From positions 1-38,268 of IMG/VR virus record IMGVR_UViG_3300025889_000337: a DNA stretch of 38,268 nt; one strand, given 5' to 3'. Shown one piece after another: positions 4,858 through 37,570 of the stretch. The notes below the pieces were generated by a model. That model searched no databases, was not told the DNA's origin, and saw only the letters and a program-made list of their open reading frames with translations. The translations under genes were made by a program, and so were the position numbers. The stretch is from a virus. The number at the start of each line of letters is the position of its first letter. Within the stretch, counting starts at the first letter, position 1.

Positions 4858-5378
4858 CACTAGACAAAGTTTGGTATCGCCCGTCGCTGGTTGTGCTCAC
4901 CGATAACGAACCAGTTGATGGCGGATCGCCGGGAACCTACACAATAGGAAGCCCATACACAGACTACATAGTCCTGACAGACGACAACAGGTCAGAACTC
5001 TCTGTCACCATTGAGAGAATAGAGTACAAGAAGAGAATGATAAATGGCAGAATGAGGGCATACCACGTCACTGACAAGAAGTCCTTTAATATCTCATGGA
5101 ATGAGATTCCGTCAGCCAGCGCCATTGTGTCAGAGGCACGTCAGCCTGTCGGTGGCATCGCCGCTGGGAAGGAGATGCTTCAATGGCATCAGAGCCATCC
5201 AGACTCATTCTGGATGATGCTCGTCTACGACACTCCAAATCCAGAGAGGCTGGGAGATCCCTTGCAGTACAGAGTTGAGTGGTACAACGTGTTCTTCGAA
5301 GACTTTGACTACACTGTGGTGAAGCGGGGAAGTGCATACGACCACTGGAACGTCTCTATGTCGCTGGTGGAGGTATAA
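4854..5378 (+). CDS. Tail-tip protein, possibly distal tail type
   Basis: This 174-residue protein starts in an ATGA overlap with the tape measure gene and ends in a TAATG overlap with the next gene, so translation is probably coupled. The sequence is rich in beta-forming and aromatic residues, with no signal peptide or membrane segment. Siphophages usually place a distal tail protein directly after the tape measure gene and before the tail-associated protein, and that position is the main reason for the call. I do not recognise a specific family, so a generic minor tail protein is the safer reading. Confidence 0.6.
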   Translation: MTLDKVWYRPSLVVLTDNEPVDGGSPGTYTIGSPYTDYIVLTDDNRSELSVTIERIEYKKRMINGRMRAYHVTDKKSFNISWNEIPSASAIVSEARQPVGGIAAGKEMLQWHQSHPDSFWMMLVYDTPNPERLGDPLQYRVEWYNVFFEDFDYTVVKRGSAYDHWNVSMSLVEV

Positions 5379-35592: not shown

Positions 35593-35664
35593 ACCTCCTT
35601 GGTATAATGGTTATCACGCTGCTCTCATAAGGCAGAGAAGATGGTTCAATTCCATCAGGAGGTA
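35593..35664 (+). tRNA. tRNA with CAT anticodon (Met or Ile2)
   Basis: Acceptor ACCTCCT pairs perfectly with AGGAGGT; the T arm is GATGG-TTCAATT-CCATC; the anticodon stem CTGCT/GGCAG holds loop CTCATAA with CAT. The D stem is weak. The CCA is not encoded. A CAT anticodon can be elongator Met or, after lysidine modification, Ile for AUA; heavy AUA use in the tail genes favours the latter. Confidence 0.82.
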
Positions 35665-35667
35665 CTT

Positions 35668-35740
35668 GCCACCTTAACTCAGAGGCCAGAGTTCCCGCCT
35701 TGTAAGCGGGCAGTCGTCGGTTCGATTCCGACAGGTGGCT
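35668..35740 (+). tRNA. tRNA-Thr (TGT)
   Basis: Acceptor GCCACCT/AGGTGGC, D stem ACTC/GAGT, anticodon stem CCCGC/GCGGG with loop CTTGTAA (TGT, reads ACA), T arm GTCGG/CCGAC. All stems are complete. No CCA encoded. Discriminator base T. Confidence 0.93.
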
Positions 35741-35746
35741 CGCAGA

Positions 35747-35817
35747 TGCGGGATGGTGTAATGGCAGCACGAATGACTTTGGATCATTCTGTCAAGGTTC
35801 GAATCCTTGTCCCGCAG
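35747..35817 (+). tRNA. tRNA-Gln (TTG)
   Basis: Acceptor TGCGGGA/TCCCGCA, anticodon stem AATGA/TCATT with loop CTTTGGA (TTG, reads CAA), T arm CAAGG/CCTTG with TTCGAAT loop. The U1-A72 pair is usual for glutamine tRNAs. No CCA encoded. Confidence 0.93.
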
Positions 35818-35823
35818 CGATCA

Positions 35824-35895
35824 CCACAGGTAGTGAAACGGTCATCACGCGATTCTGATACAGTCGTATTGGAAGTTCGATTCTTCCCCTGTGGA
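35824..35895 (+). tRNA. tRNA-Ile (GAT)
   Basis: Acceptor CCACAGG/CCTGTGG, D stem GTGA/TCAC, anticodon stem CGATT/AGTCG with loop CTGATAC (GAT), T arm GGAAG/CTTCC. Reads AUC and AUU. C at position 38 is unusual but the cloverleaf is complete. No CCA encoded. Confidence 0.85.
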
Positions 35896-35906
35896 CGCAA
35901 CAACAT

Positions 35907-35977
35907 GCGGCTGTTGCATAATGGTAGTGCCTCTGCCTTCCAAGCAGACGGTGCCAGTTCGATTCTGGTCAGCCGCT
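35907..35977 (+). tRNA. tRNA-Gly (TCC)
   Basis: Acceptor GCGGCTG/CAGCCGC, anticodon stem TCTGC/GCAGA with loop CTTCCAA (TCC, reads GGA), T arm GCCAG/CTGGT with TTCGATT loop. Complete cloverleaf, discriminator T. GGA is among the commonest glycine codons of the tail genes. Confidence 0.92.
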
Positions 35978-35989
35978 CAAGGAGATGAA

Positions 35990-36146: not shown

Positions 36147-37352
36147 ATGAGAATAGGATTTGGCTCCACAGACTGGGGCGACCACATGGAGGCCCAGCCC
36201 GGTGGCTGCACAAACATGCGAGCAGTAATACCAACAATTGGTTTGTCTCAGATAGGACATGAAGTCAATGTTGGTGAGATTGGATGGAAGAATGGTGAGG
36301 GGTTCGTAATAGTTCCACCGTCATACCGTCTCACTCATGCCAAGGATCGCGGTCCAATCAAGAACTATTCTCAGTGCTTCGACAAACTAGACGTGGTAGT
36401 CCTAAAATTGTTCATGTGGAAAGATGCGTCTGAATATATCAAGAAGGCTCAGTCCTATGGCCAGACTGTCATCATTGACACTGACGACCACTTTGAGCAA
36501 CTTCCTATCGACAACATGGCCTACCACACCACTGACCCAAAGAACAATCCAGACAACAATCGCAAGTTCATGATTGAGACGTACAGGATTGTTGATGGGA
36601 TAACGGCCAGCACCAAGTTCCTTGAGGACAAGGCCAGAAAACACAATGAGACTGTCTACAAGGTTCCAAACTCACTAGATCCATCAGACTTCATAAGAAA
36701 GATTGATGGCGCTGGATGGAAGCCAACCATTGGCTGGGTGGGAATCATGCTCTGGCGTGTAGAAGACATAAAGGAAGTCTCTGCTCCGCTGAGAACGGTA
36801 CTTGAGGAGCACGATCTTCGATTCCATCACTCAGGCATCGTCCTTGACAAGCCTCATTGGTTTGCAGAGGCGGCAGGATTTGGTCCAGAAAGAATGTCTG
36901 GATATGTCGGGGCTAGGCCAAAATTCTACCCCAACATTCTTATGCCAATAGACATAGGCATAGTCCCTTTGACCAACAACCCTTTCAACGAGGCAAAGAG
37001 TTCTCTCAAGGGCCTTGAGTATGCCATGTCAATGATCCCATTCGTGGCATCAGACACATACGAATATCGTGAACTGGCTGAGATGGGGTGTGGTAGAATA
37101 GCAAAGAGACCAAAGGACTGGATTCGCCATCTTGAGGAACTGCTAGATCCAGAAGTCAGGATCGCTGAGGCTCATAAGAACTATGAGGTTGCGGTTAACA
37201 ACTTCAGCACCTTCAAGATGAAGTATCGGTGGTCGGAGGCCATTGAACTGATTCACATGAAGGCTCAGGATAGGCGAAGAAAGGCTGCTAGGTCTCAAAG
37301 CACGGGGCAGAAAGGTTTCGACCCTTCAAAGTTCTTGGCCGCAAAAACCTAA
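36147..37352 (+). CDS. GT4-like glycosyltransferase
   Basis: The 401-residue product has a GT-B layout: an N-terminal Rossmann-like half (VVVLKLFMW, VIIDTDDHFEQL) and a C-terminal half with IGWVGIMLW, IDIGIVPLTNNPFNEAKSSLKGLEYAM and a VASDTYEYREL segment, the nucleotide-sugar site pattern of GT4 enzymes. It may glycosylate host surface polymers, DNA bases or virion proteins; the acceptor cannot be told. Its last 49 bases are also the 5' end of the tmRNA, so the final residues (GQKGFDPSKF) are constrained by RNA. Confidence 0.82.
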   Translation: MRIGFGSTDWGDHMEAQPGGCTNMRAVIPTIGLSQIGHEVNVGEIGWKNGEGFVIVPPSYRLTHAKDRGPIKNYSQCFDKLDVVVLKLFMWKDASEYIKKAQSYGQTVIIDTDDHFEQLPIDNMAYHTTDPKNNPDNNRKFMIETYRIVDGITASTKFLEDKARKHNETVYKVPNSLDPSDFIRKIDGAGWKPTIGWVGIMLWRVEDIKEVSAPLRTVLEEHDLRFHHSGIVLDKPHWFAEAAGFGPERMSGYVGARPKFYPNILMPIDIGIVPLTNNPFNEAKSSLKGLEYAMSMIPFVASDTYEYRELAEMGCGRIAKRPKDWIRHLEELLDPEVRIAEAHKNYEVAVNNFSTFKMKYRWSEAIELIHMKAQDRRRKAARSQSTGQKGFDPSKFLAAKT

Positions 37353-37530
37353 CAAAATATAACAAACGGCACAAATAGACAATCATTCGCCCTAGCCGCA
37401 TAGTTAGGGCCGCGCCACGTCTGCGTTGGAACAGAAAGACGTTCTTGTAGTATAATCTAATTAAGCAATACAGTATGTTAGGGTCAATGAGTGAAGAAGT
37501 GGGACGCGAGTTCGATTCTCGCCTGCTCCA
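37304..37530 (+). ncRNA. ssrA: Compact transfer-messenger RNA (tmRNA)
   Basis: 5' GGGGCAG (37304-37310) pairs with CTGCTCC (37523-37529) as the acceptor stem, with one G-U pair and A as discriminator. The 5' element GGTTTCGAC and the 3' element GGACGCGAGTTCGATTCTCGC are the tRNA-like-domain signatures of bacterial tmRNA. The tag frame 37368-37403 reads GTNRQSFALAA then TAG, and its end is in a GCCCTA/TAGGGC stem, as in other tmRNAs. A CCCTTC/GAAGtGGG helix fits the closing stem. At 227 bases it is much shorter than bacterial tmRNAs of about 350. tmRNA with the host SmpB protein releases stalled ribosomes and tags the chain for degradation. Its promoter is probably that of the glycosyltransferase. 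Confidence 0.93.
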
Positions 37531-37570
37531 CCTAACGCTGGAAGGCAAATAAAAATAAGAGGTGTATTAG

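Follow-up and report, generated by a model that had tools for sequence, protein, structure and literature searches.

The window, i.e., the whole stretch of 38,268 nucleotides taken from an IMG/VR virus record, carries what we take to be a functional phage-encoded tmRNA in one piece, made of a tRNA-like domain (TLD), helix 2, a tag hairpin and one pseudoknot; we give this reading, including the mechanistic steps set out below, a probability of about 0.86. tmRNA is a bacterial RNA that frees stuck ribosomes, and its usual form has four pseudoknots. The strong support for the gene is comparative and does not come from single-sequence folding.

Gene call and comparative support for the fold

A first-pass annotation had proposed a compact tmRNA at this place, with tRNA-like ends, a tag frame closed by TAG and ending in ALAA, and its first 49 bases within the coding sequence of an upstream glycosyltransferase, and all of these elements were recovered (Table 1). 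ARAGORN calls the gene with its coding part at 65–100, and the Rfam model RF00023 matches 37304–37533 over its full span (1–374 of 374) with an E-value of 4.6e-18 and 52.6 bits, a modest score above the cut-off of 47 bits, below which several relatives fall. The end previously set at 37530 is the discriminator base, up to which the acceptor stem pairs; the CCA is partly encoded, CCT following A37530 and the final A being absent. The TLD is of the alanine type (G3-U acceptor pair, T arm and no anticodon arm), the internal tag frame has a stop and an ALAA-like hydrophobic end, and helix 2 and helix 5 are both found. One pseudoknot was found instead of the typical four. This number is not strict, since other accepted tmRNAs have fewer (PMC3968760, PMC1168896).

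Covariation was scored over the seven distinct sequences of the window clade (8 contigs). The proposed structure of 47 pairs, including the pseudoknot, has 97.6% of its cells paired, a figure favored by the fact that the structure was drawn from L006, itself a member of the scored set, so that the 17 pairs changed on both sides are the stronger evidence. None of 500 shuffled controls reached the observed pairing and covariation, and slid versions of the structure were ~40% paired. At least one compensatory change was found in each of the acceptor stem, the T arm, two of the three helix 2 segments, helix 5 and both pseudoknot stems; helix 2 has 6 pairs with changes on both sides, while its innermost 5 pairs are invariant and hence without covariation support. 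The G3-U pair, a mark of alanine acceptors, is present in 7/7 of these sequences, with one compensatory change from GC to AU in the same stem, and also occurs in the clade with a 46-aa ORF described below. In the related phages, the 5′ and 3′ halves come together in a tRNA-like domain with covarying pairs, in keeping with the earlier proposal. Folding of the window RNA as a single sequence was not convincing alone (z = −1.75), and its minimum free energy structure differs from the covarying fold.

Table 1. Positions of the tmRNA, its parts and the neighboring genes in the window.
Feature	Position	Strand	Basis or remark
tRNA cluster upstream, five genes (Met, Thr, Gln, Ile, Gly)	35593..35978	+	ARAGORN
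Glycosyltransferase, 401 aa, PHROG 7162	36147..37352	+	last 16 codons and stop inside tmRNA
tmRNA gene, 229 nt up to encoded CC	37304..37532	+	ARAGORN, RF00023
Acceptor stem, 5′ strand GGGGCAG	37304..37310	+	100% paired; G3 pairs with U of CUGCUCC
Helix 2, 5′ strands (37324–37327, 37332–37340, 37349–37353)	37324..37353	+	
A-rich linker, 14 nt, helix 2 to resume codon (usual site of PK1)	37354..37367	+	
Tag frame GTNRQSFALAA and TAG	37368..37403	+	ARAGORN
Helix 5 hairpin, stop codon within loop	37390..37409	+	covarying structure
Sole remaining pseudoknot, post-tag	37410..37442	+	covariation; scoring across phage tmRNAs
Pseudoknot S1, CCGCGC/GCGT[T]GG	37410–37415 / 37423–37429	+	
Pseudoknot S2, ACGTCT/AGACGT	37417–37422 / 37437–37442	+	
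Pseudoknot L3, AACAGAA	37430–37436	+	
Helix 2, 3′ strands (37477–37481, 37482–37491, 37496–37499)	37477..37499	+	
T arm, 5 bp and 7-nt loop	37506..37522	+	3 pairs changed on both sides; 100% paired
Acceptor 3′ strand CTGCTCC (37523–37529), discriminator A37530, then CC	37523..37532	+	

Relatives, tags and pseudoknots

The compact form (225–240 nt) occurs in 14 phage contigs, the window included. A search with the glycosyltransferase gave seven IMG/VR contigs (70–77% identity), all with a tmRNA of ~225–227 nt and the same overlap, and a profile search added more distant glycosyltransferases (48–52%). In six of the contigs with such distant glycosyltransferases (L045, L047–L050 and L052), the enzyme has 375 aa and does not overlap the tmRNA of 231–240 nt; between them lies a 46-aa ORF (2625–2765) that forms an ATGA junction with the glycosyltransferase and whose stop codon ends on the last base ahead of the tmRNA. 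This ORF is conserved, lysine-rich and ends in CTKCxKIK, and the T loop in this clade has the sequence TGCAAAT or TGCAATT rather than TTCGATT. In L043, L044 and L046, a tmRNA of ~295–298 nt lies ~520–575 nt after the glycosyltransferase. All three clades keep the order of glycosyltransferase followed by tmRNA, but only that of the window has the overlap. Note that several members fail ARAGORN and score under the Rfam cut-off (L004/L005 45.4, L045 36.4, L049 43 and L050 44.8 bits), so the class is under-counted. Second weak tmRNA matches in L002–L007 (77–85 nt) were mostly tRNA-Ile according to ARAGORN and were rejected as tRNAs. A tRNA-like element at 560–644 of L004/L005 (weak RF00023 match of 25 bits, missed by ARAGORN) sits about where relatives have tRNA-Ile(tat) and is probably an odd tRNA. 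An unrelated viral contig, L009, has a tmRNA of 237 nt on the minus strand (5112–5348) with the tag ANDVALPMAA.

All phage tmRNAs compared have an open tag frame. Within the compact form, the tags vary up to an invariant [F/L]ALAA end, the ALAA codons change only synonymously, and all relatives keep a full frame that closes with ALAA and places its stop codon in the loop of helix 5; it is plausible that the window tag would act with host proteases. Immediately before the resume codon, in a stretch that determines the tag frame in E. coli, the window has ACAA and its relatives have AUAA. By alignment, L004/L005 resume at AAC instead of GGC/GCA. Outside the compact form, ARAGORN gives Streptomyces phage BillNye (L015, 748–1043) the tag ADNIDAEYEALCAEYALVTV, which ends in LVTV and not in ALAA, and proteins tagged in this way might escape the usual proteases. 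The tags of L043, L044 and L046/L022 are longer than usual and end in VAA, with a 23-aa core, GT[F/L]ITESALRNK[I/L]..F[V/I]R[V/I][P/S]VAA, conserved in these three phage contigs.

All 23 of the different phage tmRNAs that were scored, among them annotated genes of cultured Streptomyces phages, have the H-type pseudoknot after the tag. Its design (S1 CCGCGC/GCGU[N]GG, S2 of six variable pairs, L3 AACAGAA) has a constant geometry with differing stem sequences, and 18 of the 23 have no mismatched pair and 5 have one. For the window pseudoknot taken by itself, equally good scores came from 7 of 2000 shuffled flanks, and the claim is therefore carried by the conservation across phages. The pseudoknot pattern gave zero matches among the 84,980 genomes searched, and a search with the pattern of the TLD 5′ end matched other phyla only and provided no host tag for comparison; L020 and L027 were rejected as chance pattern matches.

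Between helix 2 and the tag, PK1 was not recovered in the window, L002 or L008, and the alignment has a gap of 24 columns at this site in the window clade. A PK1 candidate with variable stem sequences lies at one constant place in 5/6 cultured phages as well as in L043 and L046; such candidates individually score just modestly above shuffles, and the constant place is their main support. In L044, PK1 is visible by eye, the script having chosen another match, and in Annadreamy it is less clear. A PK1-like alternative (CUAG/CUAG with AGUUU/AAACU) in L003, L004, L006 and L007 was rejected, as it is absent in the window, L002 and L008 and incompatible with the covarying helix 2. The linkers of the 46-aa-ORF clade are as short as those of the window clade, so the loss of PK1 is probably common to both compact clades. 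Work in E. coli rated PK1 above the other pseudoknots in importance. There, PK1 was called required, yet a hairpin can replace it, and PK2–4 are largely dispensable for tagging (PMC3968760); single-stranded RNA in place of pk1 was reported to tag efficiently (PMC4236655). The 14-nt A-rich linker of the window clade would fit these replacement results, and the literature searched yielded no paper on PK1-less phage tmRNAs. At the expected site of PK3/PK4, the window tmRNA has 34 A-rich nt. The first-pass statement that most of the pseudoknot region is lost can be made more specific, as PK1 is gone and the post-tag pseudoknot is kept; phage tmRNAs are indeed known, but they are less rare in this lineage than had been stated, being annotated in cultured Stanwilliamsviridae.

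These phages (BE cluster) are the closest cultured ones to the polymerase and terminase of the window (54–60% identity); they infect Streptomyces, with one tmRNA reported for each (PMC5764925), and the host of the window phage is probably an actinobacterium. When the window gene was searched as DNA against cultured phages, only short TLD pieces and a helix 5/pseudoknot match to StarPlatinum came up. In Streptomyces phage TunaTartare (L017 959–1737, NC_070784), where the gene has no tmRNA annotation, an inserted 498-nt endonuclease VII/HNH ORF interrupts the tmRNA directly after the pseudoknot, and the joined halves score 50.5 bits with RF00023.

Glycosyltransferase overlap and proposed function

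The overlap measures exactly 49 nt (37304–37352), and the glycosyltransferase stop (37350–37352) lies inside the mature tmRNA in the window and in all near relatives, i.e., in 8/8 window-clade contigs down to 70% protein identity. Third-codon divergence in the last 16 codons is 0.142 versus ~0.50–0.51 elsewhere in the gene, lower than in all 387 other 16-codon stretches (mean 0.504), and 7% of comparisons at four-fold sites differ in the overlap versus 58% outside. Because divergence drops there, RNA constraint dominates the sequence of the overlap. A published survey of 115,660 t(m)RNA genes counted only 250 valid cases in which a same-strand upstream CDS runs into the gene (PMC4131195).

An active tmRNA using the SmpB of the host is by far the likeliest reading of these sequences; the host protein would be needed since none was found on these contigs (seven searched, all partial genomes). 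The steps from transcription to tagging, and what they may do to the glycosyltransferase, are inferred to be the following. The tmRNA would be cut from a transcript common with the glycosyltransferase, receive CCA, be charged with alanine via the G3-U identity element, bind host SmpB and EF-Tu, and, in infected cells, rescue ribosomes that have stalled on broken mRNAs, whereby GTNRQSFALAA would be added to the product and its ALAA end would direct this product to host proteases. According to PMC3985003, tmRNA 5′ ends are cut by RNase P; if this enzyme cuts the tmRNA from the shared transcript, the cut at 37303/37304 would separate the glycosyltransferase message from its stop codon, and each mature tmRNA would therefore leave one non-stop glycosyltransferase mRNA. 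The presence of the same gene at the same place in 7/7 near relatives, and also downstream of distant glycosyltransferases, supports an active tmRNA, while the requirement for PK1 described in E. coli (PMC3968760), ACAA for AUAA in the window, the missing SmpB and the modest RNA model scores count against it.

Only the last of these steps is contested by an account that we consider somewhat favored, in which the tmRNA is real and active and the overlap neutral: the glycosyltransferase frame would just reach the first in-frame stop of the RNA, and the non-stop message would have no regulatory consequence or would be avoided through a separate promoter. Neutrality agrees with the related clade, in which the 375-aa glycosyltransferase does without overlap and the 46-aa ORF ends at the tmRNA 5′ end, with added C-terminal residues that are dictated by the RNA, and with cultured-phage glycosyltransferases that align only to residue 379–393; the conservation of the overlap in all eight contigs speaks against it, although the demands of the RNA may be sufficient to account for that conservation. 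The message would stay intact if the tmRNA had its own promoter within the glycosyltransferase gene, where promoter-like matches did not exceed chance. We are doubtful about, and advance only tentatively, the joint reading that maturation is a switch on the glycosyltransferase and that PK1 is naturally dispensable. Each processing event would then destroy one message and the same tmRNA would tag the non-stop product, coupling glycosyltransferase output to the supply of ribosome rescue, and a tmRNA with the post-tag pseudoknot only would be fully active.

A decoy has no need of a tag, and the retention by all compact relatives of the full ALAA frame, the stop in the helix 5 loop and synonymous ALAA changes makes it improbable that the RNA instead inhibits host trans-translation by binding SmpB or AlaRS without tagging, the role suggested for the DS6A molecule with only a TLD, even if the missing PK1, the lack of SmpB on the contigs and the reports that a TLD-like molecule inhibits tmRNA (cited in PMC4131195 and PMC11915505) would suit such a role. 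A decaying relic of a fuller tmRNA, to which the short length and the Rfam score near the cut-off might point, is highly improbable and already contradicted by the comparative data (strong covariation, RNA-driven constraint in the overlap and retention in 14 contigs).

Comparison with known systems

The canonical one-piece bacterial tmRNA (E. coli type, RF00023) and the window tmRNA have in common the TLD with G3-U, helix 2, the tag with its stop in helix 5 and the ALAA end, whereas the latter has one pseudoknot versus four, no PK1 and 229 nt versus ~350 typical. A review gives 230–400 nt as the size range of tmRNAs (PMC3968760); natural tmRNAs of 225–240 nt with one pseudoknot and without PK1 sit at its bottom or under it, and the compact phage tmRNAs could serve structural studies as a minimal version that needs no engineering. 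The Stanwilliamsviridae tmRNAs (Gilson, Comrade, Annadreamy, BillNye, StarPlatinum and Muntaha), from the same polymerase/terminase lineage, are likewise shorter than bacterial tmRNA and display the post-tag pseudoknot with its bulged base and invariant AACAGAA loop; in contrast to the window gene, they measure 268–298 nt, have the PK1 candidate at its constant place in 5/6 and are stand-alone genes among tRNAs, without overlap with an upstream CDS. Since the pseudoknot is common to all scored tmRNAs and PK1 is found in most cultured phages, the compact form is a further reduction of this known lineage, which suggests a stepwise trimming with one post-tag pseudoknot kept.

The tmRNAs of Oenococcus oeni and the Pavlova lutheri plastid also have no PK1 pseudoknot, but helix 4 of PK1 was reported missing there, whereas the entire PK1 segment is gone in the window (PMC1168896). 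Mycobacteriophage DS6A encodes a reduced tmRNA as well, with little beyond the TLD and no tag frame (PMC4131195, PMC11915505); the window tmRNA has a tag frame. Finally, in Carsonella smpB/ssrA, the upstream CDS enters the tmRNA and maturation should give a non-stop mRNA (PMC4131195), the overlapping gene being smpB in an endosymbiont and a glycosyltransferase in the present phages. The conserved overlap offers, like that of Carsonella, a natural case in which tmRNA production should break the message of its neighbor.
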